Of a stretch of 22,098 nt of DNA, positions 872 through 21,260 are shown in pieces. The notes beneath the pieces were generated by a model. It did no database searches. It saw only the letters and a program-made list of their open reading frames with translations, and was not told the origin of the DNA. The stretch is from a virus, in the IMG/VR virus record IMGVR_UViG_3300033141_005977, positions 1 through 22,098 of that record; one strand, 5' to 3'. Position 1 is the stretch's first letter. Each line of letters starts with the position of its first letter. The position numbers and the translations under genes were made by a program.

Positions 872-1705
872 ATGGCTGACGAAGAAAATAAATGGACGAA
901 ACCCTCTAATCCTCCGCCACCTCTTTTTCTAGGCGAAAGAGAGAGAAATCTTGTCAAGCAGGTCAATGACGAGCTTATCGAGAGGGTAATAGGCCAAGCA
1001 ATTACTTATTTACCAATCTCTATGGAGAGATCAAATTTTCACCCACTCTATGGGGAGGCGATAGAAAAGTCATTTTTACCACCAATTCGAGTATATGCTT
1101 TGGTGGAATTTGAAAGTAAAACAACAATAACAACAGATTATGGTATCGATAAAGATTATTCAATCATCGTTCGTTTTCATAACCGCAGACTCCACGAGGA
1201 TCAAAATTTATTCATACGAGAAGGGGATTATGTTCAGTATGGCACTTCTTTTTTCGAAATAGTCACACTTACTGAAGACAGAGACTTGTTTGGCCAAGTT
1301 GACCACCGATTCCAGCTTATCGCCAAGTGCATAAAAACAAGAAGAGGGTTAATAAACCTGGACATCTTGCCTACCGCTACTGTAGCGGCCCTCACTGATA
1401 GCTACGAGGCAGAAGTTGTTCCCACCTTATCTCCCGCATCAATTCCAATAACAAGTGTTGTTCGGCTTATATACTGTGAGGATGCCATCGTGGATATTTC
1501 TTCGGGAACTTCTCTAAATTCTTTTCTTGGTGCCCCAATAACTTTATCTCTAGAGACTGCGGCCATCTATCTAAATGGACTGAGGCAGGAATTGACCGAT
1601 AGTCCTATAACCGGAGAATATTATATTGTTTCTGGCGAACTCTACAGCTCCTTTGACATTTCAATTGGCCAACGCCTGACATTAGAGGTCTTGACATTAG
1701 TATGA
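872..1705 (+). CDS. Neck protein, T4 gp14-like, with extra C-terminal beta-type module
   Basis: This is probably a neck protein that joins the filled head to the completed tail, as T4 gp13/gp14 do. It has 277 aa. Residues 20-165 carry a pattern I recall from gp14-like neck proteins of large aquatic phages: GERERNLVKQVNDELIERV, then QAITYLPIS, FHPLYGEAIEKSFLPPIRVYA, and a tail with GDYVQYG and FFEIVTL. Residues from about 170 to 277 look like a separate small beta domain ending in IYLNGLRQELTD, then YYIVSG and GQRLTLEVL, resembling fibre or adhesin modules. A GAAGGAG ribosome-binding site lies 8 bases upstream, inside the end of the previous gene. Its stop overlaps the next start as ATGA, so it is translationally coupled to the DUF444 gene. 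The neck assignment is moderate; the C-terminal module is inference. Confidence 0.55.
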   Translation: MADEENKWTKPSNPPPPLFLGERERNLVKQVNDELIERVIGQAITYLPISMERSNFHPLYGEAIEKSFLPPIRVYALVEFESKTTITTDYGIDKDYSIIVRFHNRRLHEDQNLFIREGDYVQYGTSFFEIVTLTEDRDLFGQVDHRFQLIAKCIKTRRGLINLDILPTATVAALTDSYEAEVVPTLSPASIPITSVVRLIYCEDAIVDISSGTSLNSFLGAPITLSLETAAIYLNGLRQELTDSPITGEYYIVSGELYSSFDISIGQRLTLEVLTLV

Positions 1706-2907
1706 GTATTTTCAAAGAACATAAATCAATAGCAGATCGCTCCGCAACAGACAGAAAAAGACACAAGCAAAAAATAGATAAAGCACTCAGGGAGGGGTTA
1801 AAGGGTGTGATTGCTGAAGAATCCATCATAGGTCAAAGTGGCAAAAAGAAGGTAAAAATTCCAGTTAAGGGTGTCAGGGAATACCAATTTGTTTATGGGG
1901 ACAACAAAAACAACAAAAAAGCGGGTTCAGCTGGCGATAAAAAAATCAAAAGAGGGCAGATCTTAAGAAAGGGCGGAGGAAAATCAAAACAAGCAGGCAA
2001 AAAAGGATCCCAGGACCCAGGAGAAGAATATTATGAAGTGGAGGTTACATTAGAGGAGCTAGCGGAGTTGCTCTTCACAGACCTTGAGCTACCTGATCTT
2101 GAAAAAAAGAAATTTAGATATATAAAGACCCAAAAACTGAAGAGGCGCGGATTTAGAAAGAAAGGCATGCGATCACGCCTTTCAAAAAAAGAAACTATTA
2201 AGAGAAAAATAAGAAGAAAGAAGAGGGCCGTTGCCGCAGGCACCTATGATCCGGATGGCGAAGAGAGATTCCCTTTCCACGAAGACGATTTAAAATATAA
2301 ACATATGAAATTGAAGCCAGAAGAAAATAATTCTGCAGTCATCTTCTTCTTAATGGATGTTTCCGGCTCAATGACGAAAGACAAGAAATACATCGCCAGA
2401 AGTTTTTATTTTTTATTGTATCAGTTTCTTCGATACAAATACGATAACATAGAGGTTGTTTTTATTTCACATTCGACAGAAGCAAAAGAGGTCAGCGAAG
2501 ATGATTTCTTCAAAAAGGCAACCAGCGGAGGGACCTTGATGTCTACTGCATTAGAATTAGAAAAAGAGATAATAAATAAAAGATATCACCCATCCAGCTG
2601 GAATATATATACTTTTTATTCTGGTGACGGAGAAAACTGGTCCTACGATGACGAAAAAACAATAAGATTGTTTTCAGAACTAAAAGAACTAAATCAAATG
2701 ATGTGCTATGCTGAAATAGACCCATATTCGGTGGGAGAAACCGATTTGTCGTTTTTGTCAAGATCTTTTAATTATAATGTTAGTGAAGCGAGCAAAATGT
2801 GGATGAAAATCAATGCCGTCCTGGGTGATAGTTTTAAGAAAGTAAAACTTACCAAACCAGAACACATTTGGCCATCATTCCGTGAATTATTCGGGGGAAA
2901 CCCGTGA
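1702..2907 (+). CDS. yeaH-like: DUF444 / YeaH-YhbH family von Willebrand factor A protein
   Basis: In bacteria YeaH (YhbH in Bacillus) is encoded with the PrkA/YeaG kinase and SpoVR and acts in starvation or sporulation responses; its biochemical role is poorly known. The 401-aa protein has the full family layout. A basic N-terminus (FKEHKSIADRSATDRKRHKQ) is followed by a Gly/Lys-rich linker near residues 70-105. Next comes the EEYYEVEVTLEELAELLF / DLELPDL segment (about 108-133), then a second basic stretch. The von Willebrand A domain has an intact MIDAS: DVSGS at 219-223, SGGT near 275-278 and YSGDGEN near 306-312. The C-terminus HIWPSFRELFG is also typical. The start overlaps the neck-gene stop (ATGA) and the stop overlaps the SpoVR GTG start, so it depends on coupled translation; its own ribosome-binding site is weak. 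Assignment is firm by motif. Its presence in a phage structural operon is the odd part. Confidence 0.93.
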   Translation: MSIFKEHKSIADRSATDRKRHKQKIDKALREGLKGVIAEESIIGQSGKKKVKIPVKGVREYQFVYGDNKNNKKAGSAGDKKIKRGQILRKGGGKSKQAGKKGSQDPGEEYYEVEVTLEELAELLFTDLELPDLEKKKFRYIKTQKLKRRGFRKKGMRSRLSKKETIKRKIRRKKRAVAAGTYDPDGEERFPFHEDDLKYKHMKLKPEENNSAVIFFLMDVSGSMTKDKKYIARSFYFLLYQFLRYKYDNIEVVFISHSTEAKEVSEDDFFKKATSGGTLMSTALELEKEIINKRYHPSSWNIYTFYSGDGENWSYDDEKTIRLFSELKELNQMMCYAEIDPYSVGETDLSFLSRSFNYNVSEASKMWMKINAVLGDSFKKVKLTKPEHIWPSFRELFGGNP

Positions 2908-4205
2908 AAGATTGGTCCATAAAAGAATTAGAGCATTGGGACACAGAAATTTGCAAAATTGCAAAAGAGAAATATAATCTAGATTGGTTCCCTATCGAGT
3001 ACGAAATCTTAAATTATCATGAGATGATCGGTGCCATGGCATATTCCGGCCTACCGTCACATTACCGTCATTGGTCTTTTGGAAAATCTTTCGAAAGAAC
3101 AATAACTAGATACAATCTTGGGATGGAGGGTTTGCCGTATGAGATGATCATCAATGCGAATCCTTCAATCGCTTACCTCATGCTTGAGAACCCGATGAGT
3201 ACCCATTTATTAACAATGGCTCACTGTGTGGGACATTCAGATTTTTTTAAAAATAACAGAATGTTTAAATATACGAATCCGGCCGACATTCTAGCAAGTT
3301 TCAAATCCGCCGCAAAAAGAGTTAAGTCATATATAGAGGACCCAAATATTGGAATAGAGAAAGTGGAGAGAATCTTAGATGCATGCCATTCTATTCAATA
3401 TCAGGTGCCCCGCACACCGGGAATATTTAGAATGAGCGAGCATGAGACTAAAAAGCTGATTATTAAAAAAGCTAAGGGGAAGATCGATTTATCTTCCGGT
3501 CTGGTAAATAAAAATTATAATCTTTTGGATTTTATCAAGAAGAACGCCAGAAATCTGGAAGATTGGCAGCAAGACTTAATTGAGATGGTGGAGAGAAGAT
3601 CTTCATATTTCATCCCACAGGCTCAAACAAAGATCATGAATGAGGGTTGGGCAGTCACGATTCATGAAAAAATAATGAAAGATTTAAAGCTTGCAGATAA
3701 ATACTATTTAGCATTCTTAAAAACACACAATCAGGTTGTGAGACCTATAGTCGGAAGAGTGAATCCTTATCATCTGGGATATATGATTTTTAAAAAAATT
3801 GAAGAAAAATATGGATTTGAGGAGAGTCTTCTTGTCAGGGAAACCCACGACGATGAGTCCTTTATTCGAAAATATCTAGATGAAGACTTATGTAGAGAAC
3901 TGAACCTATTCAGCTATTCTTACAGCAATAAACAGAAAAATTATGCCATTAATGACATTTCCGATAAAGAAGGGTGGAAAAGCGTTAGGTCCGCCCTAAT
4001 TAGTAATGTAGGGTTGGGGGGAGTTCCTATCGTTTATGTTAAAGACCATGATAAAAAGACAAATACACTTTATATCAAGCATGAGCATGATGGTAGGGAT
4101 TTAGATATCCCGTATGCAAACAAGGTCTACAGCCAGATTTGTTATTTATGGGGCGATGACGTCGATTTTACAGCAATTATAGATGAGGAACTATGGGAAT
4201 TTTAA
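2904..4205 (+). CDS. spoVR-like: SpoVR / YcgB family protein
   Basis: SpoVR is needed for spore cortex formation in Bacillus and is co-encoded with PrkA and YeaH in many non-sporulating bacteria; its molecular activity is not established. The protein has 433 aa, somewhat shorter than the roughly 470-510 aa of bacterial members. Hallmark blocks are in order: DWFPIEYEILNYHEMI (about 27-42), HWSFGK (56-61), NPSIAYLMLEN (86-96), AHCVGHSDFFKNN (106-118), a C-terminal KIMNEGWA (243-250) and GRVNPYHLGY (284-293). The GTG start overlaps the DUF444 stop as GTGA, with a GGGGGAA ribosome-binding site about six bases upstream. The stop TAA lies one base before the internal ATG of the PrkA gene. All conserved His/Asn/Glu blocks I recognise are present, so it does not look decayed. 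Family assignment is firm; its function in the phage is unknown. Confidence 0.93.
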   Translation: MKDWSIKELEHWDTEICKIAKEKYNLDWFPIEYEILNYHEMIGAMAYSGLPSHYRHWSFGKSFERTITRYNLGMEGLPYEMIINANPSIAYLMLENPMSTHLLTMAHCVGHSDFFKNNRMFKYTNPADILASFKSAAKRVKSYIEDPNIGIEKVERILDACHSIQYQVPRTPGIFRMSEHETKKLIIKKAKGKIDLSSGLVNKNYNLLDFIKKNARNLEDWQQDLIEMVERRSSYFIPQAQTKIMNEGWAVTIHEKIMKDLKLADKYYLAFLKTHNQVVRPIVGRVNPYHLGYMIFKKIEEKYGFEESLLVRETHDDESFIRKYLDEDLCRELNLFSYSYSNKQKNYAINDISDKEGWKSVRSALISNVGLGGVPIVYVKDHDKKTNTLYIKHEHDGRDLDIPYANKVYSQICYLWGDDVDFTAIIDEELWEF

Positions 4206-6147
4206 AATGAAACATTCAAAAACAAATAAATTTTTAGAGATCGCAGAGGGGCATAAAAAAAGCAGCAAAAGAGAGAAGTTTTCTGGCACTTTTTCTGATT
4301 TTTTGGAATTGTTGGAAGACGATAAAGATATCGCGATATTGGCCCACAAACGCCTATATAGCACGATCGTTGAAAAGGGAATAACAAGATTGTCAGAAGA
4401 AGATTCCCGCTGTAATAACCTATTTAATGGAGAAGCCCTCAAAACTTATGATTATTTTCAAGATAGGTTTTTTGGAATGGAGCGACCTCTCGCTAAAATT
4501 ATGAGATATTTGCACTCTGCATCGATGAGGGGAGAAGAGAGTAAGCAAGTTTTACTCCTCCTCGGACCCGTCGGAGCCGGTAAATCGGCACTAGTTGAAC
4601 ACATTAAGCGCGCCTTGGAGAATTCTGGCAAACTATATGCTCTTGGGGACTGCCCGATACAAGAAGATCCACTCCATCTTGTTCCTCGCTCCCTCAGAGA
4701 AAACTTTAAAGATATCTATGGAATAAAGATCGAAGGAGACTTATGCCCGGTTTGTCGTCACAACCTATTGGAAGTACACGGCGGAGATTATACAAAATTT
4801 CCAGTAAAAGAAACTTCCTTTTCAATTCGGGGCCGTCGCGGCATCGGAGTTGTTCCGCCTATGGATGCCAACACTCAAGACACAAGCATCCTGATAGGGT
4901 CAGAAGACATTTCTAAATTAGATCTATATCCAGAGGACGACCCTCGTGTTCTGTCCCTTAACGGGGCCTTTAATGTGGGAAATCGTGGAATCGTGGAATT
5001 CGTAGAGGTCTTCAAAAACGAAATAGAGTTCTTGCATACAATGATTACAGCAACTCAAGAAAAAGCTGTCCCGTCTCCTGGTAAAGGGGCGATGATTTAC
5101 TTTGATGGGGTTATCCTTGCCCACTGTAATGAAGCAGAATGGGTTAAATTCAAGTCTGAAAATACAAACGAGGCAATTTTAGATAGAATAGTTCGAGTAA
5201 ACGTTCCATATTGTTTGGAGGTTAGTGAAGAACAAAAGATCTATCAAAAACTTCTTGACGAATCAGATTTCGATGCACATATCGCACCGCACACACTTGA
5301 ACTTGCGGCCATGTTCTCTGTACTCAGTCGGCTAAAATCTTCCAACAAAGTTGACCCCCTCACTAAAATGAAGATCTATGATGGGCAGGAAATCGTCGAA
5401 AAAGGATATATCAAAAAAGTGGATATTAATGATTTGAGGGACGAAGTACGCGACGAGGGAATGACAGGCATCTCGACAAGATTCATTATGAAATCTATAG
5501 ATGCAGCTCTCGCTGATTCCGAAAGGAACATGGTTACACCGATCTCTATTCGGGATGCTCTCGTCAAACAAGTTAAAGAACAGGTCGTTGTAGAAGAGCT
5601 GAGGGAGAAATATTTATCCTTTCTCCAAAAAGAGCTTCACGATGAATATCTCAAAATATTGGAAACAGAAATCACGAAAGCCTTTGTTTCTGCATACCAA
5701 GAACAAGCAGAATCGCTCTTTGACAATTATCTCGATCATGCGGAATCATATGTCAATGGGACCAAGGTTAAAGACAAGGTAACTAATGAAGAAATGGTAG
5801 CTGATGAACCTTTCCTGTGCTCAATCGAAGAACAAATCGGAATAGTCGGTTCCGCAAGAGAAAACTTTAGGGCAGATATCACCGCATACATGTTTGCAAA
5901 ATTGAGAAAAGGCGAAAAGATTGACTGGACATCATATGGTCCTCTTAAAGAGGCCATCGAAAATAAGCTGTTAACTTCGGTACGAGATATCTCCAGAATC
6001 GTCACGAAATCCAAGTCGAGAGATAAGAAGCAGCAAGGAAAATACAATGAAATGGTGAAAACCCTTATCGAAAATTATGGTTACGACGAGAACTCTGCTA
6101 CGGAAATTATCAAGTATGCATCGAATAATCTATGGAGAGACAGTTAA
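4183..6147 (+). CDS. prkA-like: PrkA / YeaG family AAA+ serine protein kinase
   Basis: PrkA (YeaG in E. coli) couples an AAA+ module to a C-terminal kinase-like domain; Bacillus PrkA has also been proposed to be an ATP-dependent protease. The longest reading is 654 aa, close to the bacterial lengths (about 630-645 aa). Visible motifs are the N-terminal FSGTFSDFLELLE and Walker A GPVGAGKS (128-135). They are followed by a CPVC pair (188-191), the family block NRGIVEFVEVFKN (267-279, Walker-B region), FDGVILAHCNEAEW (307-320, sensor Asn) and DRIVRVNVPY with EEQKIYQKLL. A long helical C-terminal part follows. The start at 4183 overlaps SpoVR by 23 bases and has no ribosome-binding site. The in-frame ATG at 4207, one base after the SpoVR stop, gives 646 aa and is equally likely. 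A strong terminator follows the gene. Assignment is firm; its substrate in infection is unknown. Confidence 0.94.
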   Translation: MRNYGNFKMKHSKTNKFLEIAEGHKKSSKREKFSGTFSDFLELLEDDKDIAILAHKRLYSTIVEKGITRLSEEDSRCNNLFNGEALKTYDYFQDRFFGMERPLAKIMRYLHSASMRGEESKQVLLLLGPVGAGKSALVEHIKRALENSGKLYALGDCPIQEDPLHLVPRSLRENFKDIYGIKIEGDLCPVCRHNLLEVHGGDYTKFPVKETSFSIRGRRGIGVVPPMDANTQDTSILIGSEDISKLDLYPEDDPRVLSLNGAFNVGNRGIVEFVEVFKNEIEFLHTMITATQEKAVPSPGKGAMIYFDGVILAHCNEAEWVKFKSENTNEAILDRIVRVNVPYCLEVSEEQKIYQKLLDESDFDAHIAPHTLELAAMFSVLSRLKSSNKVDPLTKMKIYDGQEIVEKGYIKKVDINDLRDEVRDEGMTGISTRFIMKSIDAALADSERNMVTPISIRDALVKQVKEQVVVEELREKYLSFLQKELHDEYLKILETEITKAFVSAYQEQAESLFDNYLDHAESYVNGTKVKDKVTNEEMVADEPFLCSIEEQIGIVGSARENFRADITAYMFAKLRKGEKIDWTSYGPLKEAIENKLLTSVRDISRIVTKSKSRDKKQQGKYNEMVKTLIENYGYDENSATEIIKYASNNLWRDS

Positions 6148-6402: not shown

Positions 6403-6412
6403 ATGGCTTTAA
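6368..6412 (+). CDS. Possible 14-codon leader peptide overlapping the LamG start
   Basis: The frame reads MKINKTNRRNLSWL and ends at TAA 6410-6412, ten bases past the first base of the LamG ATG at 6403. It has a perfect AAGGAG ribosome-binding site at 6354-6359, 8 bases from its ATG. Its own coding sequence contains the AGGAGG ribosome-binding site (6389-6394) of the LamG gene, read as two rare Arg codons AGG AGG. It is either a coupling leader peptide or a remnant start; I cannot tell without translation data. Confidence 0.35.
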   Translation: MKINKTNRRNLSWL

Positions 6413-9030
6413 GTGATCACACTTTAATAGCAGCTTATCCGCTTGGCTTCGGAATCGAAGACTTGCAGGACAGCTACGATGGATATAGTGCCCAAAACAT
6501 GACATTTGCTGGAGATGTGGAACTCGGCGGATTACCCGTCGCAGATTTCAACAGCTCTTATTACGGCATCGATAATGCTCTAGAAAATGGTCTTGACACA
6601 GAGTATTCAATCTCAATGTGGATTAAACCAGATTCGCTTCCTGCGGGCAGTGCCCAAAGAACTATTATGGCAAATGAGCAACACGGCTCTTATTATAATA
6701 CCTTTGGAATCCAACAGATGTCCGATGGACAGCTTTACATCCATCACAGATCTGCCAATGGTGGCGCCTATGATATCGCATTTACCGGTGTGTCCCTTGC
6801 GGTAGACGAATGGTACCATGTCACTGCAACATGGAGTGGCACACAAATCAAGTGGTATGTCGATGGTGAATTGACAAGCACCACGGCCGCCACAAGGGTT
6901 CCTTGGAACTCTCCAGCTACACTCTGGATCGGCGCAAATGCAACGAAAACCAATAAAACATACTACGACGGTAAAATGTCGGATTTAAGGTTCTGGTATT
7001 CAGAACTTACTGCATCCGATATCTCGGAGTTATATGCAGCAGGACAAGTTCCGATAGACTTGGGCCTCGTCCTTCATCATGACTGTGATGATGCGACAGC
7101 CGAAATCGGTTCGGATGTGACCTTTACTGATGTTTCCATTGGCTCATCTTTAGGTCGCACACATTGGGATTTTGCGAATCTCAATTCAAAAGCACCATTG
7201 GATGTGAATAACCTGCCAGACATGTCTGGCGATTGGACCGTTTCGATGTGGTTTTCGGAGATGACAGCTCCAACCACTTGGCGATCCATTGCAAAAAGTC
7301 AAACAGAAATCTTGGGAGTGGTTTCAAGTCCGCATCACTCACCCGCTAACACACTGGGTGTTTACACAACCACTGGTTATGTAAGCGCTGGATACTCGAT
7401 GAATTATTTGAATTTTCAAAACTGGAATCACATGGTTATCGTCGGTAGCGGAACAACTACCAAATTTTATATTAATGGATCACATGTCGGAACAGCACCA
7501 GTGAAAATTTCAACAGATCTCTATTCAATAAATAATCAACCCGTTGGGGCTTACAATCAGTTGTTTGCAAACAACATGGACGATTTACGAGCTTGGAATC
7601 GTGCACTCTCAGAAATTGAAGTTCAAGCCCTCCACCTAACAACAACTGTCACGCCATCTCTAACAGATGATCTTGTAGCAAAATATGCTCTTGATACTGA
7701 TGCATCTGATTCTGTTGGATCGAATGACGGAACAGTGACTGGTGTTGATTTCATATCAGATTCTGGAAGAACCGTTGCCTCATTCGACGCATCTGCTGGT
7801 GAGAAGATTCATTTTGGCGATGTTGACGATGTTGACTTTGGAACCGCTGATTTCTCGGTTGGAGCTTGGGTTAACTTTAACTCTATCTCAACGGGCCCAT
7901 TTGTTTCGCCAGTCGTTCAAAAAGGTCAGACAAGCTTGGCCAATTGGAGCGGATATGCCCTGAACGCTTATCAAGGACAAATGAGGTTCGGGGTAGGTGG
8001 AAATAATGGAGTTAAAGTTGCCGCAGCTGCAATTACAACAGGCGATTGGCATCATGTAGTTGGTACAAGAAAAGGCGCGGCTATAAAGCTGTATATTGAC
8101 GGCTCTTTGGTGGATACACAAGCCGATACAATGACTAGGAATGTTAGCACACATTTGCCATTAACTTTTGGTTCCATTAACAATGGTACAGAATACAATG
8201 GATTGTTGGATGCAATGGTTGACGATGTTCGAGTTTGGTCTAGGGCACTCTCTGATTCTGAAGTCTCAACCCTACATGCAGCAGGAGCAGATAGCCCTGC
8301 CCCATCCGGCTATGACTGGACTCACGGCGGAAACTTGTCTGATATTGTCAAATTCTCAAGAGGATATGACATTTCTGGCAATCCTTCTTATGCTTATGCT
8401 AAGAAAGAGTCGGGTGATGGTTCAACAACTCTGTACTTTGCGACAGATTTCCAAACATGGTCAACATTCTCATCATATGCTTCCGGTGTGTCATCAATTG
8501 ACGGCTCCCCAATTTGCATGGAATATGGCCCGAATGGAAAAGTTCTGGTAGGAACAGATAGCGGCAAGTTATATGAAATCGTCCTTGACGGCTCATCGGC
8601 TCCGCAATCTTACTCACTTGTCCATTCAATGGCTGGTAGTGAAGATATCAAGGTCATTAAATATGGTGTATCTTCCAACTTGTGGGCTTTCGAAGCTGGC
8701 GGAAAGGTTTATACCATTCCTGTCGGAGGCGGAGCAGCAGTTGAAAAACTCGACCTAAATGTTGTAGATCAAGCTGGCTCTATCGTGCAGGACATGTCCG
8801 AAGCGAATGATGCTTGGTCAATTGTGGTTCGTCGCTCTGATTTCACCTTCGTGGTGTATCTGGTGTCACCTGACTGGTCAACTGTAAACAACCCTGCTTC
8901 TTTGCAAGCGGTGTTGAGTGCGATCAATCCGGTGGATTTGAACTACTTCTACGATATTGACACTTGGTGTGCTTCTGGTGCTGATGGAACTGTCATTACG
9001 ACAGACGACATCAATAACTGGATCGTATAA
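6403..9030 (+). CDS. Triple LamG-domain (concanavalin-A-like) virion adhesin with propeller-like C-terminus
   Basis: This is likely a surface-exposed virion protein that binds sugars or host surfaces (tail fibre, head decoration or baseplate-linked adhesin). Its 875 aa contain three successive LamG_3-type jelly-roll domains at about 8-214, 222-412 and 423-628. Each shows the signature order (Y/W)S(I/V)(S/G)(M/A)W near the start, W-x-H-(V/M) in the middle, K-(W/F/L)-Y-(V/I)-(D/N)-G, and an ending of D-(L/V)-R-x-W-x-x-x-L-(T/S). Residues 636-875 differ: repeated short segments such as GKVLVGTDSGKLYEI, DAWSIVVRRSD and a final GTVITTDDINNWIV look like blades of a beta-propeller or BNR-type repeat. 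There is no signal peptide, as expected for a virion protein. It has an AGGAGG ribosome-binding site 8 bases upstream. Domain calls are firm; the position in the virion is inference. Confidence 0.82.
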   Translation: MALSDHTLIAAYPLGFGIEDLQDSYDGYSAQNMTFAGDVELGGLPVADFNSSYYGIDNALENGLDTEYSISMWIKPDSLPAGSAQRTIMANEQHGSYYNTFGIQQMSDGQLYIHHRSANGGAYDIAFTGVSLAVDEWYHVTATWSGTQIKWYVDGELTSTTAATRVPWNSPATLWIGANATKTNKTYYDGKMSDLRFWYSELTASDISELYAAGQVPIDLGLVLHHDCDDATAEIGSDVTFTDVSIGSSLGRTHWDFANLNSKAPLDVNNLPDMSGDWTVSMWFSEMTAPTTWRSIAKSQTEILGVVSSPHHSPANTLGVYTTTGYVSAGYSMNYLNFQNWNHMVIVGSGTTTKFYINGSHVGTAPVKISTDLYSINNQPVGAYNQLFANNMDDLRAWNRALSEIEVQALHLTTTVTPSLTDDLVAKYALDTDASDSVGSNDGTVTGVDFISDSGRTVASFDASAGEKIHFGDVDDVDFGTADFSVGAWVNFNSISTGPFVSPVVQKGQTSLANWSGYALNAYQGQMRFGVGGNNGVKVAAAAITTGDWHHVVGTRKGAAIKLYIDGSLVDTQADTMTRNVSTHLPLTFGSINNGTEYNGLLDAMVDDVRVWSRALSDSEVSTLHAAGADSPAPSGYDWTHGGNLSDIVKFSRGYDISGNPSYAYAKKESGDGSTTLYFATDFQTWSTFSSYASGVSSIDGSPICMEYGPNGKVLVGTDSGKLYEIVLDGSSAPQSYSLVHSMAGSEDIKVIKYGVSSNLWAFEAGGKVYTIPVGGGAAVEKLDLNVVDQAGSIVQDMSEANDAWSIVVRRSDFTFVVYLVSPDWSTVNNPASLQAVLSAINPVDLNYFYDIDTWCASGADGTVITTDDINNWIV

Positions 9031-9132: not shown

Positions 9133-12100
9133 ATGAGTAAACGTACAAGATTAAAGGGAATAGATCAGGTAGACATCGCGCTATCTGGGGTTTCCGATTA
9201 TGAGACTTATGCAGATGCTGTATTAGCAGGAGACAGCGGCCTAGCTGACTTATCGATGGACCTTTTCGATATTAAGGCCCTCGCCCTGAGTGCTAGTGTC
9301 GCAGACTATCAGGCTGCAGCTAAAAATCATGCCATCATCAACTATGGCATGCTTAATTATGCAGTCGGAATTGAAGAGGCTCGTGCCCTCGCAGCAGAAG
9401 CTGCAATTCAAGCTGATGTTGATGCAAACGAGGCTGCAGCACTTGCAGCTCGCAATGCAATTCAAGCTGATGTTGATCAAAACGAAGCCGATGCAGATGC
9501 TGCAATCGCCGCACTCCAAGCCGATGTTGATGGAAACGAAGCTGATGCAGATGCTGCAATCGCCGCACTCCAAGCCGATGTTGATGGAAACGAAGCTGAT
9601 GGTGATTCTGATCGTGCTGCTATCCGCAGCGAGATCGCCGCAGCTAAGGTTATTTCTGATGCTCTTCATGCTGCTATCCAGAGTGATGTTGACCAGAACG
9701 AATTAGACTCCGATGCAGCAGAAACATCACTCACGACTCGTCTGGCAGCAGAAGAAGTCGCTCGTGCCGCTGATGTCGATGCCGAAGAAGCTCGTGCCAT
9801 CGCCGCTGAAGCAGTGCTTCAAGCTGATATTGATCAAAATGAAGTGGATGCTGATATCGCAGCAGCATCACTCACCACACGCGTAGCCGCCGAAGAAGCC
9901 GCACGTGCATCTGCAGTTAGTTCTGTTGATGTTCGCTCTGCAGCAGAAGAAGCAGCTCGTGCCGCAGGTGATTCCTCTCTTCAAGTCAGACTGGCTGCAG
10001 AAGAGGGTTCCCGAGCCTCGGGTGATTCCTCACTCCAGACTCGCTTATCCGCAGAAGAAGCAAGAATGGACGCAGTCCTTCTCTCTTCCTCCGCAGACAA
10101 AGACAGTTTCGCTGAAATCGTTTCTTTGATCAACGCTGTTGATCTCACAAACGACAATGACTTGGCAGCCGCCGTCCTTAGTTTGGCAAACGTCGATTCC
10201 GCAGAAGAAGCCGCAAGACTTGCTGCTGATGCCTCACTCACAACCCGTGTTGGTGTTGAAGAGGCTGCAAGAGCTGCAGCCGACTCCTCGCTCACCACTC
10301 GTTTGGGTGTTGAAGAAGCGGCCCGTATTGCTGATGTAGATGCAGAAGAACTTCGTGCATTAGCTGCTGAAGCAGCACTTCAGGCAGACATTGATGCAAA
10401 TGAAGCTGCCTCCGATGCCGCTGAAGCTTCACTCACCACTCGCTTGAGTGCTGAAGAAGTTGCAAGAGCTGCTGCAATTAGCTCTTCCGACATTCGTGTC
10501 GCTGCTGAAGAAGCTGCAAGAGCTGCTGCTGACTCCTCACTCACCACTCGCTTGAGTGCTGAAGAGTCCGCTCGTGTTGCAGATGTTGCTGCACTTCAAG
10601 CCGATGTCGATCAGAACGAATCTGATTCTGATTTCGCCGAAGCATCACTCACCACTCGTTTGGGTGCTGAAGAAGTTGCAAGAGCTGCTGCAGATGCTTC
10701 TATCGTCGTCAAGCACGACGCAGAACTCGCTGCACTTCAAGCTGATGTGGACGGAAACGAATCCGACGCAGATGCTGCCATTGCTGCCCTTCAGGCCGAC
10801 GTGGACGGAAACGAAGCTGATGCAGATGCTGCAATCGCTGCACTTCAAGCTGATGTGGACGGAAACGAAACTGATTCCGATGCCGCAGAAGCATCACTCA
10901 CCACCCGCTTGGGTGTTGAAGAAGCTGCTCGTGCCACGGCCGATGCATCTATAGTCACAAAGCATGATGCAGAGATGGCTGCCCTTCAGGCAGATGTTGA
11001 TGCAAATGAAGTGGCCTCCGATGCTGCTGAAGCCTCACTCACCACTCGTTTGGGTGCTGAAGAGGTTGCAAGAGCTGCAGCTGATGGATCCTTGACAACT
11101 CGTCTTGGTGCCGAAGAAGCTGCAAGAGCTGCTGCAATTTCTACCCTGGAATCAAAGCATGATCTTGAGGATGCTGCAGAACAAACGGCACGTGCCGCTG
11201 CAGATGCATCTTTAAACTCTAAAATTGATGCTGAATCTGCCGCACGAATTATCGATGTTGATGCAGAAGAAGCTCGCGCCCTAGCAGCAGAAGCTGCATT
11301 GCAAGCTGATATCGACCAGAACGAAACTGATTCTGATGTTGCTGAAGCATCACTCACCACTCGTCTCGGTGTCGAAGAGGCTGCAAGAGCAGCCGCTGAT
11401 GGTTCTATTGACACTCGTATGGGTGTTGAAGAAGCAGCAAGAGCAGCTGCAGATACCTCACTGTCTTCACGTGTACTCGCTGAAGAAGGTGCAAGGGCTT
11501 CAGGCGATTCCTCGCTCACTACTCGTTTGGGTACTGAAGAGGCAAGAGTAGATGCTATTTTGCTCGCCGCCGATGCAGATAAAGACAGCTTCGTTGAGAT
11601 CGTTTCTCTGATCAATGCTGTTGATCTTACTAACGACGATGCACTCGCGGCCGCTGTACTTAGCCTCGCAAATGCTGACTCTGCAGAAGAAGCAGCAAGA
11701 ATTGCTGCAGATGCTTCTTTAACCACTCGTTTGGGTGCTGAAGAAGTTGCAAGAGCTGCTGCAGATACCTCACTGACGACTCGTGTCGCAGCAGAGGAGG
11801 CCGCACGTGCTGCTGCTGATGCATCGATCGATGTTGTCAACGCTGCAATGCAGGCTGACATTGATCAGAACGAAACTGATTCTGATGTTGCTGAGGCATC
11901 ACTCACGACTCGTCTCGGTGTCGAAGAGGCTGCAAGAGCTGCCGCTGATGGATCCTTGACAACTCGTCTTGGTGCTGAAGAGTCCGCAAGGGCCGCAGCT
12001 GATGGATCTATCGACACTCGTATGGGTGTTGAAGAGGCCGCAAGAGCTGCAGCTGATGGTTCTTTAACCACTCGTTTGGCTGCAGAAGAAGTCGCTCGTG

Positions 12101-12540
12101 CTGCCGATGTCGATGCTGAGGAGGCCCGTGCATTAGCTGCCGAGGCTGTACTCCAAGCTGATATCGATCAGAACGAAGCAGACGGAGATGCTGCAATGGC
12201 TGCAGAAATCGCTGCTCGCCTCCTTCAAGAAGGAAAGGTAAGCACAGACATCGTAGCTATGAACACCAAATGGCAAATGCATGTATATCCAATCCAGGCA
12301 GCCGATATCGCACCAGGAATGGTTTTGAGTTTCGCTGCAAACGGACACGATCCAATGTCGCAAGTTGCTTATGTATCCATTAACGGTATGATTATGGCAC
12401 CAATCGTCGGCGGTTCGGGTGATTACACTTTGAACTTGGACGGAAGCGGTGATGTTGACGGTATTACTTTCGACATTCAGATTTATGCTGGCGATCGTAT
12501 TGCTTACTACGGTGAGAAAGCTATCACACTTCTGTCGTAA
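9133..12540 (+). CDS. Long alanine-rich fibre protein made of 18-residue helical repeats
   Basis: This is probably a trimeric or otherwise multimeric fibre shaft with a small terminal head, acting in host contact or virion decoration. The 1135 aa divide into three parts. Residues 1-79 form a unique N-terminal part, likely the attachment end. Residues about 80-1040 carry two interleaved 18-residue repeat types, one centred on LQADVDxNEADADAAI and one on SLTTRLGAEEAARAAAD. Residues about 1045-1135 form a compact C-terminal domain rich in beta pattern (VYPIQAADIAPGM, YVSINGMIMAP, GDRIAYYGEK). Two copies of a roughly 45-residue non-repeat insert (ADKDSFxEIVSLINAVDLTND) interrupt the shaft. It has an AAGGAG site at 9118-9123, 9 bases from the ATG, and a strong terminator follows the stop. 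Composition is extreme (Ala, Asp, Glu, Arg, few aromatics in the shaft). The structural role is confident; whether it is a tail or head fibre is unknown. Confidence 0.75.
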   Translation: MSKRTRLKGIDQVDIALSGVSDYETYADAVLAGDSGLADLSMDLFDIKALALSASVADYQAAAKNHAIINYGMLNYAVGIEEARALAAEAAIQADVDANEAAALAARNAIQADVDQNEADADAAIAALQADVDGNEADADAAIAALQADVDGNEADGDSDRAAIRSEIAAAKVISDALHAAIQSDVDQNELDSDAAETSLTTRLAAEEVARAADVDAEEARAIAAEAVLQADIDQNEVDADIAAASLTTRVAAEEAARASAVSSVDVRSAAEEAARAAGDSSLQVRLAAEEGSRASGDSSLQTRLSAEEARMDAVLLSSSADKDSFAEIVSLINAVDLTNDNDLAAAVLSLANVDSAEEAARLAADASLTTRVGVEEAARAAADSSLTTRLGVEEAARIADVDAEELRALAAEAALQADIDANEAASDAAEASLTTRLSAEEVARAAAISSSDIRVAAEEAARAAADSSLTTRLSAEESARVADVAALQADVDQNESDSDFAEASLTTRLGAEEVARAAADASIVVKHDAELAALQADVDGNESDADAAIAALQADVDGNEADADAAIAALQADVDGNETDSDAAEASLTTRLGVEEAARATADASIVTKHDAEMAALQADVDANEVASDAAEASLTTRLGAEEVARAAADGSLTTRLGAEEAARAAAISTLESKHDLEDAAEQTARAAADASLNSKIDAESAARIIDVDAEEARALAAEAALQADIDQNETDSDVAEASLTTRLGVEEAARAAADGSIDTRMGVEEAARAAADTSLSSRVLAEEGARASGDSSLTTRLGTEEARVDAILLAADADKDSFVEIVSLINAVDLTNDDALAAAVLSLANADSAEEAARIAADASLTTRLGAEEVARAAADTSLTTRVAAEEAARAAADASIDVVNAAMQADIDQNETDSDVAEASLTTRLGVEEAARAAADGSLTTRLGAEESARAAADGSIDTRMGVEEAARAAADGSLTTRLAAEEVARAADVDAEEARALAAEAVLQADIDQNEADGDAAMAAEIAARLLQEGKVSTDIVAMNTKWQMHVYPIQAADIAPGMVLSFAANGHDPMSQVAYVSINGMIMAPIVGGSGDYTLNLDGSGDVDGITFDIQIYAGDRIAYYGEKAITLLS
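9487..9594 (+). repeat. Tandem 54-bp repeat, two copies
   Basis: Two adjacent 54-base units (9487-9540 and 9541-9594) are identical except for one base (GCC versus GCT at the first codon). They encode the 18-residue unit ADADAAIAALQADVDGNE inside the fibre shaft. The near-identity at synonymous positions indicates recent duplication or ongoing exchange. Confidence 0.9.
10066..10200 (+). repeat. Copy 1 of a duplicated 45-residue insert in the fibre
   Basis: This segment encodes MDAVLLSSSADKDSF then AEIVSLINAVDLTND and AAAVLSLAN. It matches the segment starting at 11548 with only conservative changes, at an offset of 1482 bases. It breaks the 18-residue coiled repeat and may form a hinge or globular knob on the shaft. 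Confidence 0.85.
10732..10884 (+). repeat. Tandem 54-bp repeat, nearly three copies
   Basis: Units begin at 10732, 10786 and 10840 and encode AALQADVDGNE-type 18-residue repeats. They match each other at most positions and differ mainly at synonymous third bases (GCT/GCC, GAT/GAC). They belong to the same family as the repeat at 9487 but are more diverged from it. Confidence 0.85.
11548..11682 (+). repeat. Copy 2 of the duplicated 45-residue insert in the fibre
   Basis: This segment encodes VDAILLAADADKDSF then VEIVSLINAVDLTND and LAAAVLSLAN. It is the second copy of the insert at 10066, in the same frame and flanked by similar shaft repeats (RASGDSSL before, SAEEAAR after), so the duplication probably included shaft sequence on both sides. 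Confidence 0.85.
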
Positions 12541-16025: not shown

Positions 16026-16568
16026 ATGGCTAATGAGTTTTGGACAAGTGCTAATGTCGATCCAAAAAGGAAATATAGATTTGTGGTGGAGTTCGCAGGA
16101 GCTGGCGGAATTGGAGCCCTTTGGTTTGCTAAAACCGTCGACAAACCAGAGATAACTGTTAATACTGGGGAAACAAAATTTATGCAACATACTTTTTATT
16201 ACCCCGGCACCGTTCAGTGGAACGAGATTAACCTTACACTGGTTGATCCAGTATCTCCAGATGCATCCGCAATAATGCTTCGGATTTTACAAGAATCTGG
16301 CTACACTGGCCCCCAAGGTGCTAAAACAAATATGAGATCTATCTCTAAAGCTTTAGCAACAGAGAGGCTCGGCCAAGTTGTCATCTCCCAATTATCTGCA
16401 GATGGAGAAACACAAGAGAAATGGACTCTGAAAAATGCTTTCATTACCAAAGTATCCTGGGACGGTTTGGATTATTCTTCAGAAGAACTGAGCGAACTCA
16501 CATTGACGATGAGATACGATTGGGCTAGTTGTGAAGTCGGTGAAAACAAAGCCGAATTCTTGAAATAA
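16026..16568 (+). CDS. Tail tube protein, T4 gp19-type
   Basis: Stacked hexamers of this protein form the rigid tail tube through which DNA passes. It has 180 aa (T4 gp19 has 163). The N-terminus MANEFWTSANVDPKRKYRFVVEF leads into a beta-rich body with AKTVDKPEI, the HTFYYPGTVQWNEINLTLVDP block and a C-terminal LKNAFITKVSWDGLDYSSEELSELTLTMRYDWA, all typical of T4-like tube proteins. It lies directly after the sheath, with an AGGAG site about 11 bases before the ATG. It ends 17 bases before the next gene. A diverged paralogue lies at 17673. Confidence 0.94.
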   Translation: MANEFWTSANVDPKRKYRFVVEFAGAGGIGALWFAKTVDKPEITVNTGETKFMQHTFYYPGTVQWNEINLTLVDPVSPDASAIMLRILQESGYTGPQGAKTNMRSISKALATERLGQVVISQLSADGETQEKWTLKNAFITKVSWDGLDYSSEELSELTLTMRYDWASCEVGENKAEFLK

Positions 16569-16585: not shown

Positions 16586-17446
16586 TTGGCAAGAAACAGT
16601 AAGAGTAGGCTGGGCAAAGACCTAGAACCTACCAAACCTTCTGCATCGGACCCCGTTGCAGAATTAACAGAAACCGGTAGTTTGTCCTTTGCGACTCCAA
16701 CCGAGTTCGTAGAACTTCCGTCAGGCGGTCATCATTATCCAGAAGGGCACCCATTACACAATGTGGCCACCATCGAGATAAAATACATGACCGCGAAAGA
16801 GGAGGATATCCTATCTTCCAAAACTTTAATTAAGCAGGGCATTGCTATTGAAAGATTGCTAAAAAGCATTATCATTGACAAGAGCATCCGTCCAGACTCT
16901 ATTTTGAGTGGTGATCGCAACGCTATCCTGGTTGCATGCCGCATTAATGGATATGGAAGTGAATACTCGACAAAAATCTCATGCCCTTCTTGCATGAGTT
17001 CGGCCGATCAGGAATTTGATTTATCAACCCTGTCGAATCGTGAAAACTCAGAAAAGGAAGAAGACGATTTTGAATGGACTTCTCCAAATACAATATCTGT
17101 TGTAGCCCCATTATGCAAGGTGAGAGTGGAAATGAAGCTCCTGACGGGAAAAGAAGAAAATTACCTTGCAAGATTAATTGAGTCGAAAAGAAAAAAGAAA
17201 ATGCCAGAGAGTTCATTGACTGATACCCTAAACATACTGATATCATCTGTCAATGGAGAAGAATCGAGAGCAATCATAAAAGAATTCATCGGAATTATTC
17301 CAGCTAGAGATTCTAAATTTCTTCGAAGAGCTTATGAGCAGGCTGCACCAAACCTAGATATGACACAGACCTTTGAATGTGATGTATGCAGTTATGTAAC
17401 GGACGTGGAGGTTCCGTTCACCACTGACTTTTTTTGGCCTAAGTGA
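16586..17446 (+). CDS. Tail/baseplate hub assembly chaperone, T4 gp26 (T4_baseplate family)-like
   Basis: By position between tube and tape measure, this acts where lambda gpG acts, as an assembly chaperone for the tape measure or hub; T4 gp26 is the nearest named family. The 286 aa begin with TTG, chosen because of the AGAGGTG site 4-7 bases upstream and no better in-frame start. The hallmark FVELPSGGHHYPEGHPL (41-57) is followed by KYMTAKEEDIL (66-76) and a helix LIKQGIAIERLLKSIIID. Two Cys pairs, CPSC (133-136) and CDVC (265-268), could bind one zinc across the fold. It ends TTDFFWPK and stops at TGA TGA. The seven T residues at 17429-17435 near the end probably allow a shift into the downstream frame (see separate entry). 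Assignment is fairly confident. Confidence 0.8.
   Translation: MARNSKSRLGKDLEPTKPSASDPVAELTETGSLSFATPTEFVELPSGGHHYPEGHPLHNVATIEIKYMTAKEEDILSSKTLIKQGIAIERLLKSIIIDKSIRPDSILSGDRNAILVACRINGYGSEYSTKISCPSCMSSADQEFDLSTLSNRENSEKEEDDFEWTSPNTISVVAPLCKVRVEMKLLTGKEENYLARLIESKRKKKMPESSLTDTLNILISSVNGEESRAIIKEFIGIIPARDSKFLRRAYEQAAPNLDMTQTFECDVCSYVTDVEVPFTTDFFWPK
17429..17435 (+). promoter_or_regulatory. Candidate programmed ribosomal frameshift site (seven T, +1 or -2)
   Basis: In the chaperone frame the sequence reads GAC TTT TTT TGG. A Phe tRNA on the second TTT can re-pair perfectly one base forward (17433-17435) or two bases back (17430-17432), entering the frame that reads GGC CTA AGT GAT. The -1 frame is closed by TAA at 17440-17442. 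The downstream frame is open from 17400 to its TAG at 17622-17624, so the T run lies inside the overlap. Confidence 0.6.
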
Positions 17447-17624
17447 TGAATACATAAAGAATGTCTATGAAGAGTTCTTTTTGATGAAATATCATGGTGG
17501 ATGGAGTTTTATTGAGGCATACAATTTGCCAATCAAAATCCGACGCTGGTTCTTAAATAGGTTAGCTGATCAGCTCAAAAAAGAAGCCGATGAGATGAAA
17601 AAATCTTCAAAAGGTAAGAGATAG
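17436..17624 (+). CDS. Frameshift extension of the tail assembly chaperone (gpGT/gp51-like tail), 62 codons
   Basis: This frame encodes GLSDEYIKNVYEEF, then MKYHGGWSFIEAYNLPIKIRRWFLNRL, and a charged tail ending KKSSKGKR. It resembles the short C-terminal parts of T4-like hub-assembly chaperones, with the aromatic-Gly-Gly block before a helix ending in NLPIxIRRW. No ATG, GTG or TTG in this frame lies before TTG 17481 / ATG 17484; starting there would discard the conserved-looking first 16 residues and leave only a weak GAAGAG site. With a +1 shift the fused product is 283 + 62 = 345 aa. The alternative, a stand-alone 46-aa protein from 17484, cannot be excluded. It lies just before the tape-measure block, as lambda gpT lies before gpH. 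Confidence 0.6.
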   Translation, partial: GLSDEYIKNVYEEFFLMKYHGGWSFIEAYNLPIKIRRWFLNRLADQLKKEADEMKKSSKGKR

Positions 17625-17672: not shown

Positions 17673-18533
17673 GTGGCTGCTGACTTCTGGACAGAAAGCA
17701 ATTTTCAACCAATGCAGAGATTTCGTTTTGATGTGCAGACGAATCTTTTCAAGATGGACTCGGTAGGTGGTCCCGGTTCAAATATCGCTCAATTAGATAT
17801 AACCCAACCTTTCACTATCAATCCAGCATACATTAAGGCTGTAAATTTGCCATCAGTTACTTTTGGGTATGATAACGATGCTGCAAATATTGGCTCTGAC
17901 GGACCAAACATAGAATCACAAGACCCAACGATGACAGAACTCGAACTTCGATTCTATATGTTTCCCGACCTCGCGATTGATATCCAAGATATATTCCATA
18001 CATACTATCTGCAAAATCTTAAGTCAAATGGTGCGAACCTGGACACATACCATGGCAGATTGCCAAGAATACTCAGCAAAGACAGGATCAGCCTAAAACC
18101 AAGTCGTTTAATTGTGGAAAAATCACAAATTATTGTTAATATATATGACCCAGGTGCCGGATCTCCAGTTTCCGGTACGGAACAGGCACTGGGCAACACA
18201 TCCATCGCAAGGGAAGCCATCGCCCAGCTGCAGCATGACAAGGCGAACGGAATACTGGGCATGATATCAGTTAAAAAAAGTGTCGACAGGCTCAAGGGGC
18301 GCTTACAACAAACCAGCACTCCGATACGAAGTATAAAATATTATGGAGTATATCCCGTTTCCTACGATCTTGGGACTCTAGAATACGGAAACTCAGAAAT
18401 ACTGGAAGGATCGATGAAATTTTATTTCCACGGTGTAGAGACCTTATCACCGAACAAAAAAGGCAAATATGAGCAAATTATAAATAGCTCCTTCACTAAT
18501 AAAGGAAAGCGAACCATGGGAGAATTTGAATAA
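17673..18533 (+). CDS. Tail-tube-like paralogue (second tube-fold protein, probable tube terminator or baseplate-junction protein)
   Basis: The 286-aa protein opens with MAADFWTESNFQPMQRFRFDVQ, which parallels the tube protein opening MANEFWTSANVDPKRKYRFVVE position by position. It also shares a C-terminal block with tube-like strand pattern (RSIKYYGVYPVSYDLGTLEYGNSEILEGSMKFYFHGVE). In between are an acidic, NIESQDPTMTELELRFYMF core and an inserted helical region at about 165-215. T4 encodes tube-fold paralogues gp48 and gp54 at the baseplate end, and other phages use one at the tube tip; this gene may play such a role. The GTG start is supported by GGGAG about 9 bases upstream and by the match to the tube N-terminus. 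The stop overlaps the next ATG by one base (TAATG). Confidence 0.72.
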   Translation: MAADFWTESNFQPMQRFRFDVQTNLFKMDSVGGPGSNIAQLDITQPFTINPAYIKAVNLPSVTFGYDNDAANIGSDGPNIESQDPTMTELELRFYMFPDLAIDIQDIFHTYYLQNLKSNGANLDTYHGRLPRILSKDRISLKPSRLIVEKSQIIVNIYDPGAGSPVSGTEQALGNTSIAREAIAQLQHDKANGILGMISVKKSVDRLKGRLQQTSTPIRSIKYYGVYPVSYDLGTLEYGNSEILEGSMKFYFHGVETLSPNKKGKYEQIINSSFTNKGKRTMGEFE

Positions 18534-18878: not shown

Positions 18879-21260
18879 ATGGCAGAAGACGAATCAACAT
18901 CACCAGAAGACATGGAGGCAGCCACCGAGGCAGCCAGTACCATGTCCGAAGTCATCACAAATCTAATTAAGGAGTTGTCCAGACTCGGCGAAGCCTCTTC
19001 CGAAGCATATGCCAAATTGAGGGAAGAAGCTGAAAAATCTATTCCCTCTATCGACAAGGTTAAGAAGGGAATGAAATCTGCAGCAGAACAACTGCAGGAT
19101 GACGGTGCAAGCCTTGCAGACACAATGCTTGGAATGGCCGGTATAAACGCCGATACGGAAAAGAGTTTCCTTGGAATTGCTAGCCAAATGAAGTGGGGGG
19201 GTGATGCAATGAAAGGGTTCACGGCACGACTCAAAAAAGGTTTCGCGCCCCTCGCCATAGCAAACATGTTATTAAGCAAAGTTGCCCAGTCCACACTATA
19301 TTTTATGCACCAAATGGATAGCTCCCTGGTGTCATTCAACAAATCCACTGGTGCCCTCAAACTGTACGGGTCAAACATCGTATCTTTAGAAGAAACGATG
19401 TACCAATATGGCATCACGGCAGGAGACGCCGCAGAGGCACAAACGGGCTTGGTGAGAAATGTCACAAACCTGAGAAATATGTCTGATGCCTCACAGGAGA
19501 GCTTGTTAAAGACAACCGCCGTGTTACAAGAAATGGGTGTGGATTCAGACACTACTGGTGCGAGCTTTCAATTTATGACAGCCTCCATGGGAATGACAAA
19601 CGATGCCGCAGAGAGAACAACTAGACAAATGTTTACGCTCGCACAGGCACTTGGCATGCCCCCACAAGAAATGGCAGCGTCCTTCCAGGAAGCCATGCCA
19701 CAACTTTCAGCCTTCGGTGCTTCTGCGAGCAAAGTATTCATGAAGATGGCAGAGAATGCCCGTGTTGCCAATATGTCAGTCTCGCAGATGCTGAGAATAA
19801 CGGAACAATTTGACAAATTCGATTCAGCGGCCGCATCGGTTGGAAAATTGAATGCTGCACTCGGCGGCCCATATTTGAGCACCATTAGAATGGTGACAAC
19901 AACAGACCCAACTGATCGTATGAGGGCATTGTCCGAAGCAGTAAACATGGCTGGAAAGTCTTTCGATACCATGGACTATTATGAGAGAAAAATGATAGCC
20001 TCTGCCATGGGATTATCTGATGTAAATGAACTCGCACTGGTCATGAAAGGCAGATTTGATCTTGTTGCCGGAGCCACAGAAATGAGTTCCGATAAAATAG
20101 AGGATCTGGCGGCACAAACCAAGGACTTTAACACGATTATGGAAGAGTTCGCCCAGATTGGAAGAGCTTTCACAATTAATGTGCTTGGTCCGCTCATAAA
20201 GGGAATCAAATTCCTAACAGACGGTATTGGACACCTAGCAGCAAATCCGCTGGTCAATCTGGCTGGTGGATTAGGAGTAGCCACTGCTGGTATCGTCGCG
20301 CTATCACTTGCCCTCGGAGGTCCTATCGGCCCGATAATCGCCGCCATCGCATTGGCAATAGCAGGCCTGGTATTTGTTTTTAAGGGGCTATATGATTTAG
20401 TTGGCGGAACTGAAACATTCGTCAAAATATGGGAAGGGGTTCAGAAAAGGTTCCAGCCCGTCATCGATAGATTGACGAAGGCTTTTGGTGAATTAGTTGG
20501 AGAGGGCGAGGAGTGGACTTCTTGGCTAAAATTAAGTGAACCTCAAATCGAAGCCTTTATTGATTTCTCCGTCAGACTGGTTGCTGGACTCATAGGTGTT
20601 GCAGCTTGGATACTTGAAGCCACTAACGAGGCTGGTGGACTCAAACTCATCCTCACCAACCTCGCCATCGCATTTTGGCCCCTGCTAGCGGCGATGACCG
20701 CAGTCGGCGCTGTCATCACCTTCGTCATCGGAGTTGTTACACTTCTAGCCTGGGGACTTAGTGAAATATTTCACAGTCTATATGTCGGCAACAGCCCCCC
20801 GCTCTTGTTGGTTTTTGCACTACTTGCCGCAGCAATCTATCTTGTCGGTGATGCATTTAAATACCCAATTCAAATGATTGGGAAATTGATGGACGGGCTT
20901 AAGAGCCTAGCATCTTATCTAGCAGGCAAAGCACTGGGCTTCATTTCTGGTGCAATATCTTTTGTATTCGGAGGAGGAACAACAGCTAATATCCCTTCGG
21001 CAGAAGTGAGCAACGACTCTTTCAACAGGGCTTCGGATATGGAAAGCTCAAGCAAAACAATCGCAGATGCAGTTGCCGATGGTGTCGCAGCTGCCCTAGT
21101 GGGGATGTTCCCAGAGGGCGGTGTGAAACACATGCTTGAAATAACAGCCGGTGTTGGAATGCCTCAGCTCTTTGCTTACACTACAACAATGGCAGAAACA
21201 GGTGGCAATGATGCCTTATCACAAGCACGGGCCTTTGCCCCAAAACCACAGACAGCATAG
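18879..21260 (+). CDS. Tail tape measure protein
   Basis: The tape measure spans the lumen of the tail tube, sets tail length and is ejected ahead of the DNA. The 793-aa protein has long, low-aromatic helical stretches rich in Ala, Met, Gln and Glu. The N-terminal 100 residues look like coiled coil, and residues about 140-450 form an extended helical body. Hydrophobic segments follow near 455-507 (LGVATAGIVALSLALGG and IIAAIALAIAGLVFVF), 567-580, 591-628 and 640-660, the usual membrane-active part of tape measures. A Ser/Gly-rich C-terminal tail follows. It is the largest gene between the chaperones and the tube initiator, the standard place. At about 0.15 nm per residue the tail would be near 120 nm. 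The ribosome-binding site is modest (AGGA about 13 bases upstream). Confidence 0.88.
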   Translation: MAEDESTSPEDMEAATEAASTMSEVITNLIKELSRLGEASSEAYAKLREEAEKSIPSIDKVKKGMKSAAEQLQDDGASLADTMLGMAGINADTEKSFLGIASQMKWGGDAMKGFTARLKKGFAPLAIANMLLSKVAQSTLYFMHQMDSSLVSFNKSTGALKLYGSNIVSLEETMYQYGITAGDAAEAQTGLVRNVTNLRNMSDASQESLLKTTAVLQEMGVDSDTTGASFQFMTASMGMTNDAAERTTRQMFTLAQALGMPPQEMAASFQEAMPQLSAFGASASKVFMKMAENARVANMSVSQMLRITEQFDKFDSAAASVGKLNAALGGPYLSTIRMVTTTDPTDRMRALSEAVNMAGKSFDTMDYYERKMIASAMGLSDVNELALVMKGRFDLVAGATEMSSDKIEDLAAQTKDFNTIMEEFAQIGRAFTINVLGPLIKGIKFLTDGIGHLAANPLVNLAGGLGVATAGIVALSLALGGPIGPIIAAIALAIAGLVFVFKGLYDLVGGTETFVKIWEGVQKRFQPVIDRLTKAFGELVGEGEEWTSWLKLSEPQIEAFIDFSVRLVAGLIGVAAWILEATNEAGGLKLILTNLAIAFWPLLAAMTAVGAVITFVIGVVTLLAWGLSEIFHSLYVGNSPPLLLVFALLAAAIYLVGDAFKYPIQMIGKLMDGLKSLASYLAGKALGFISGAISFVFGGGTTANIPSAEVSNDSFNRASDMESSSKTIADAVADGVAAALVGMFPEGGVKHMLEITAGVGMPQLFAYTTTMAETGGNDALSQARAFAPKPQTA

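Follow-up and report, generated by a model that had tools for sequence, protein, structure and literature searches.

Whether one gp26-like gene in a T4-type phage tail module encodes one or two tail assembly chaperones, and by which mechanism, is the question raised by a 22,098-base IMG/VR virus record, the whole of which is referred to as the window. The synthesis of a short and a long chaperone from one gene by ribosomal frameshifting has been described for lambda gpG/gpGT and for other tail assembly chaperones (Xu 2004; Atkins 2016, PMC5009743), with T4 listed as an exception in the 2016 review (PMC5009743). Equally, as relayed by later papers, some T4-like phages possess separate genes for the short and the long chaperone (PMC10885494, citing Vladimirov 2022) and poly-T signals for a -1 shift are found in TAC-N genes of T4-like phages (PMC12846349, citing Vladimirov 2022). 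In the gp26-like gene of the window and its relatives, a programmed +1 ribosomal frameshift very probably yields both chaperones.

The gp26-like gene and its two frames

The tail module of the window is arranged in the order sheath, tube, gp26-like gene, second tube-like gene, 108-aa ORF and tape measure (Table 1). The gp26-like gene is located between tail tube and tape measure, as TAC-N/TAC-NC genes require, with the second tube-like gene and the 108-aa ORF also lying between it and the tape measure candidate, the presumed client of the chaperone. Its product, read from a TTG start to a TGA stop (17444-17446), belongs to the T4 gp26 family with a PF12322 match of E 3.7e-11 (43.6 bits as compared with a curated cut-off of 24.5) and matches phrog_150 with E 1.5e-14.

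Close to the end of the gene a run of seven T residues (17429-17435) is found in the context GAC TTT TTT TGG CCT AAG TGA, separated from the stop codon by 8 bases and not by 12 as the initial annotation had counted. Both Phe codons (TTT 17429-17431 and TTT 17432-17434) can slip one base forward onto UUU, and a slip at either of them leads to the identical peptide ...DFFGL. The +1 frame extends from GGC 17436 over 62 codons to TAG 17622-17624 with TTG 17481 and ATG 17484 (46-aa product) as its earliest starts, which confirms a second frame of this length without a good start of its own. The -1 frame is closed, since the ATG overlapping the gp26-like stop opens a tiny ORF only; equally, the site reads C_TTT_TTT in place of a lambda-type X_XXY_YYZ heptamer, with the -1 frame shut at once, so that the exclusion of a lambda-type -1 shift in the window, as initially proposed, holds. 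Compared with DUF6760 (PF20546), the TAC-C tail scores 17.0 bits, below the family cut-off of 27.

Table 1. Features of the chaperone region in the window
Feature	Position	Strand	Basis or remark
Tail tube, gp19-like	16026..16568	+	phrog_4542 E 1.2e-25; directly 5' of the gp26-like gene
Predicted short form (TAC-N, 'G'), gp26-like, 286 aa, C-terminus ...DFFWPK-stop	16586..17446	+	PF12322, phrog_150
Putative shift site TTTTTTTGGCCT, two TTT Phe codons	17429..17440	+	column conservation, UUU-Y rule
0-frame end after the shift site, Trp-Pro-Lys-stop	17435..17446	+	
Predicted TAC-C ('T') domain in the +1 frame, begins GLSDEYIKNVYEEFFLMKYHGGWSFIEAYNLPIKIRRWFLNRL, 62 codons + TAG	17436..17624	+	homologous to cyanophage 'gp51' tail
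Alternative internal ATG start, 46-aa product	17484..17621	+	rejected as general mechanism
Second, weakly tube-like protein	17673-18533		phrog_45 E 3.3e-4; between chaperone and tape measure
Tape measure protein candidate	18879..21260	+	phrog_1272 E 1.9e-08

Outside the chaperone region, three adjoining genes (1702-6147) have matches to DUF444 (YeaH type, E 2.8e-105), to SpoVR (E 1.1e-114) and to the PrkA kinase (E 1.1e-144), respectively, and thus correspond to a set known from bacterial stress operons, located here within a phage tail-gene contig; PrkA-like genes are also present in Thermus phage phiYS40 and in huge phages. Furthermore, an 875-aa protein (6403-9030) with three Laminin_G_3 (concanavalin-like) matches is perhaps a fibre or decoration protein, and a 1135-aa Ala-rich protein (9133-12540) is built of repeats such as QADVDQNEADSDAAEASLTTRLGAEEVARAAADASL, with the long antisense open frames over this region probably due to the repeat composition.

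Conservation of the +1 layout

Two viral scans led by the gp26-like family, a pattern scan, a bacterial genome scan and annotated phages provided 154 non-redundant loci, to which the bacterial genome scan contributed phage-like contigs in MAGs only, mostly of Bacteroidota. In 140 of these loci the C-terminal domain lies in the +1 frame and starts directly at the Phe-Phe codons. This layout is present in the isolates Mel-JY01, immuto, SP-15 and LIS04, and Rhodothermus phage RM378, retrieved by profile search, displays upon inspection TTT TTT TGG followed by a +1 tail. The +1 continuation in the window and its relatives is beyond chance, its median length, counted from the shift site, being 74 codons as compared with 3 in the -1 frame (74 relatives), and the 0-frame of relatives ends with FFWP and a stop 5-10 codons past the first Phe. 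An exception is the jumbo phage record LR756511 (L005), in which the frame-0 C-terminus of the gp26-like protein is unlike the others and the next ORF looks separately started.

The 12-mer TTTTTTTGGCCT, by far the commonest site among the +1 loci, is conserved to 90-100% per column, with neighbouring columns conserved mostly to 30-70%, and seven T are present in 122/140 loci. Other +1 sites are TTTCTTT, TTCTTTT, TTTCTA, TTCTTTC, TTTTTTTACCCT, TTTCTATTCCCT, TTTTTTAGTACC, TTTTTTCACGCC, TTCTTTCGTCCC and more. Without exception (140/140), the +1 loci possess one or two UUU codons with U or C as the next base, on which tRNA-Phe re-pairs exactly one base forward. The slip is possible at codon 1 only in 10 loci and at codon 2 only in 4 loci; where both codons permit it, the resulting peptide is identical. 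In a later sample of 73 new loci, the slip rules held for 61/61 +1 loci and 12/12 -1 loci, the latter retrieved by a pattern scan with the A before AAT outside the pattern. TTT is used for the first Phe in 75/81 and for the second in 72/74 cases, as compared with a TTT share of 74.6% in the remainder of the genes (p = 3e-5 and 1e-7, respectively, ignoring phylogeny; as the loci are kin, such simple p-values overstate significance). Given FFW in frame 0, however, around 93% conformity with the UUU-Y rule is expected from codon usage alone by our own estimate from the 74.6% TTT, and therefore the rule by itself is weaker evidence than that from start codons, codon positions and the switch of direction.

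A lineage with the tail in the -1 frame

In the other 14 of the 154 loci, UUC UUC Phe codons, neither of which can slip +1 onto a Phe codon, are associated with the same C-terminal domain in the -1 frame (14/14). UUU-Y is found in 0/14 of these -1-tail loci as compared with all +1-tail loci, and the canonical -1 heptamer A_AAU_UUC is present in 14/14, as opposed to any canonical -1 heptamer in 1/140 +1 loci. The pattern that brought in most of the 14 loci fixed AATTTC and left the preceding A free; this A, a third codon position, occurs in 14/14 loci as compared with 25% in the +1 group (p ~4e-9, ignoring phylogeny). The lineage carries AAATTTCTTCTGGCCTTCC, as seen in L066, L046, L316, L317, L323, L325, L331, L340, L344 and relatives.

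In a tree from divergent sequences, drawn with a midpoint root, the -1 lineage constitutes a well-supported clade nested within the +1 clade (100/100) and is therefore best read as an apparent switch of frameshift direction. The four modes map onto clades with 3 changes, the least possible number.

Relation to gp26 and gp51 of T4

T4 gp26 and gp51 match PF12322 with E 8.8e-64 and 3.9e-52, respectively, and align with each other over 190 columns, with gp26 ending where gp51 runs on for approximately 46 residues; gp51 is a paralogue of gp26. Kyanoviridae, HTVC008M, Cr30, phiM12 and phiW-14 have one gp26 gene, and the ORF after it, located in the -1 frame, resembles the gp51 tail; the junction displays U_UUU_UUC or U_UUU_UUU in 25/25 non-redundant cases. 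As most of these cases carry an ATG near the gp26 stop, a separate start of the tail ORF is possible. In HTVC008M (L114; NC_020484, 16366-16557), the frame of the 'baseplate hub assembly catalyst' can be extended upstream as far as U_UUU_UUU_UAA, with no ATG at the start of the tail, and this product, annotated from an internal start, is probably truncated.

Aligned directly to T4 gp51, the tail of the window gives no significant match. On the other hand, the window tail, compared by itself, is homologous to the cyanophage 'gp51' tail (hhalign probability 96, E 1.7e-9) and the cyanophage tail to the C-terminus of T4 gp51 (E 4.1e-10), while the joined products align over 286 columns between window and cyanophage (E 1.8e-19) and over 241 columns between cyanophage and gp51 (E 4.5e-17). 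Through these cyanophage intermediates, the window tail appears homologous to the T4 gp51 C-terminus.

For the AlphaFold model of the short form of the window (pLDDT 88.9), a second structural comparison gave, over residues 25-127, two tail assembly chaperones as the closest solved chains, namely YqbN (3klu; Z 5.5, rmsd 8.2 over 91), a chaperone relative, and that of HK97 (2ob9; Z 5.3, rmsd 7.5 over 89), with 5ir0 at Z 4.1. At these modest Z values, all below 8, the gp26 N-domain would have its nearest solved folds among known tail assembly chaperones. The gp51 model displays additional C-terminal helices past the shared domain; a Foldseek search of gp51 against the PDB retrieved no chain with E ≤ 0.001, and a second structural comparison gave only Z < 5. 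In Campylobacter phage CP81 (NC_042112, 23086-24200), two adjoining genes match PF12322, perhaps a second duplicated short/long pair.

Proposed mechanism

Sequence comparison establishes both reading frames, the slip rule, the coding nature of the tail and the homology to T4 gp26/gp51, for the tail by way of the cyanophage intermediates, and a programmed +1 ribosomal frameshift that provides two tail assembly chaperones from the gp26-like gene is regarded as highly probable. Most ribosomes would read GAC UUU UUU UGG CCU AAG UGA and release the short form of 286 aa, while a minority would slip by +1 with tRNA-Phe on one of the two UUU codons, re-pair on UUU (UUU/UUC in relatives) and continue with GGC CUA AGU to a long form of 345 aa, of which the C-terminal domain comprises 62 aa. 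If the pair acts like lambda gpG/gpGT, the tape measure protein would be coated by the short form, and the tube protein would be recruited by the long form. The initial suggestion of a gpG/gpGT-like pair gains support from the comparison, as the 154 loci share a conserved predicted frameshift near the 3' end that adds a C-terminal domain. Furthermore, most near-complete frameshifting relatives examined have a single good PF12322 gene as compared with two in T4 (one relative has a second weak, stop-broken match and two named phages are below the profile threshold), and thus no other gene is evident from which the long form could derive.

We infer the translation of both forms, their ratio and their binding partners, and equally any stimulator of the slip. 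Among downstream RNA structures and SD-like elements, no strong stimulator was found: RNA structure at the site is weak (mean z -0.75 as compared with -0.06 and -0.29 in controls, mononucleotide shuffles), and a consistent upstream SD-like element is lacking, with SD-like words mostly around 20 bases upstream in a minority of loci. It is conceivable, although rather doubtful, that TTTTTTTGGCCT constitutes a self-sufficient +1 element, independent of hungry or stop codons, of an upstream SD and of RNA structure, and that evolution has replaced +1 by -1 at one Phe-Phe junction and, elsewhere in the T4 supergroup, frameshifting by gene duplication, with the two-protein output kept.

Alternative explanations

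The tail might be a separate small gene expressed from an internal start (ATG 17484 or TTG 17481) or by reinitiation past the gp26 stop, as an ATG exists in the window and cyanophage relatives with an ATG just past the gp26 stop are annotated with two genes. However, in 34/131 loci no ATG, GTG or TTG is found in the +1 frame between the preceding in-frame stop and the conserved motif, so that a tail gene with its own start throughout the homologues, the observation initially named as decisive against a frameshift, is not what the group displays. Equally, only 2/68 relatives have a start codon preceded by an SD-like sequence at a suitable distance, and the sole ORF opened by the ATG overlapping the stop, the tiny one, is in the -1 frame. 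Conserved +1 codons also precede ATG 17484: in 32 close relatives, the three positions of the 17 codons past the site have diversities of 0.37/0.23/0.57, a coding pattern which begins directly at the shift site and of which the largest part lies upstream of the internal ATG of the window. A separate tail gene is considered very unlikely.

A -2 shift, as proposed for the tail chaperone of phage Mu, results in the same frame as a +1 shift, and on the T7 run of the window such a slip, giving FFF-GLSD, is as exact as the +1 slip, as had been pointed out initially. In 127/140 loci -2 re-pairing of Phe is possible, but in 13/140 (TTTCTTT, TTCTTTT, TTTCTA, TTCTTTC and others) it is impossible, and all 13 allow +1; the +1 shift fits every locus, and a -2 shift as the common mechanism is highly improbable. 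The T run, present at full length in the window and most of its relatives, might equally promote RNA polymerase slippage with mRNAs of altered frame, yet the +1 layout is intact in 10 loci with a longest T run of 3 and in 3 loci with one of 4, which leaves this explanation with a minimal probability. Finally, a homopolymer site in a metagenomic contig invites the suspicion of an assembly error or a pseudogene, that is, a continuous gene broken by a missing or extra base; the same layout in 140 loci including the four isolates, and in RM378 by inspection, refutes this, and its probability is practically nil.

Comparison with known systems and significance

Like lambda gpG/gpGT, the locus would combine one gene near tube and tape measure with a frameshift near the 3' end and a short and a long form, but lambda shifts by -1 on a heptamer, the window putatively by +1 on UUU-Y, and the G domain of the window, unlike that of lambda, is of the large gp26 type and contains CxxC pairs. 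The 2022 abstract of Vladimirov is said to name genes 26 and 51 and to describe frameshifting as conserved in several T4-like groups. T4 gp26/gp51 (TAC-N/TAC-NC as relayed from Vladimirov 2022, Virology 566:9) share the homologous PF12322 G domain, with gp51 consisting of G and a C-terminal tail, but are encoded by two genes, and in Kyanoviridae the tail is in the -1 frame at U_UUU_UUY. The tail gene of HSTV-2 very likely uses +1 (PMC5009743) and, as described there, would share with the window the +1 shift in a myovirus tail chaperone, although it belongs to a haloarchaeal virus. With prfB-type frameshifting the proposed mechanism shares the +1 slip of the P-site tRNA; it differs in that the group has no A-site stop (the stop being at least 5 codons past the first Phe) and no close upstream SD-like element.

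The recognition of gp26/gp51 as the short/long chaperone pair of T4 is prior art, as cited by others (Vladimirov 2022), and is not claimed as new; the contrast initially drawn with separate T4 genes 26 and 51 was right in substance and had, according to PMC10885494 and PMC12846349, already been published. A conserved class of +1 shifts, the distinction of this class from -2 shifts and a lineage that changed to -1 appear to be new, with no report of a +1 class in the gp26-like family found in a literature search that reached a minority of subscription papers.

As forward frameshifts lack a generally accepted motif (PMC10885494), the 140 natural variants with a simple rule and a sister lineage switched to -1 provide a natural data set for the needs of a +1 site. 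The predicted long chaperone is missing from database records in which the gene is split or truncated (SP-15, RM378, Mel-JY01, immuto). The T4 relatives that appear to form their chaperone pair by a +1 slip constitute a large and mostly uncultured branch, whose cultured members have Flavobacterium, Microcystis, Bacillus, Listeria, Streptococcus and Rhodothermus as hosts.
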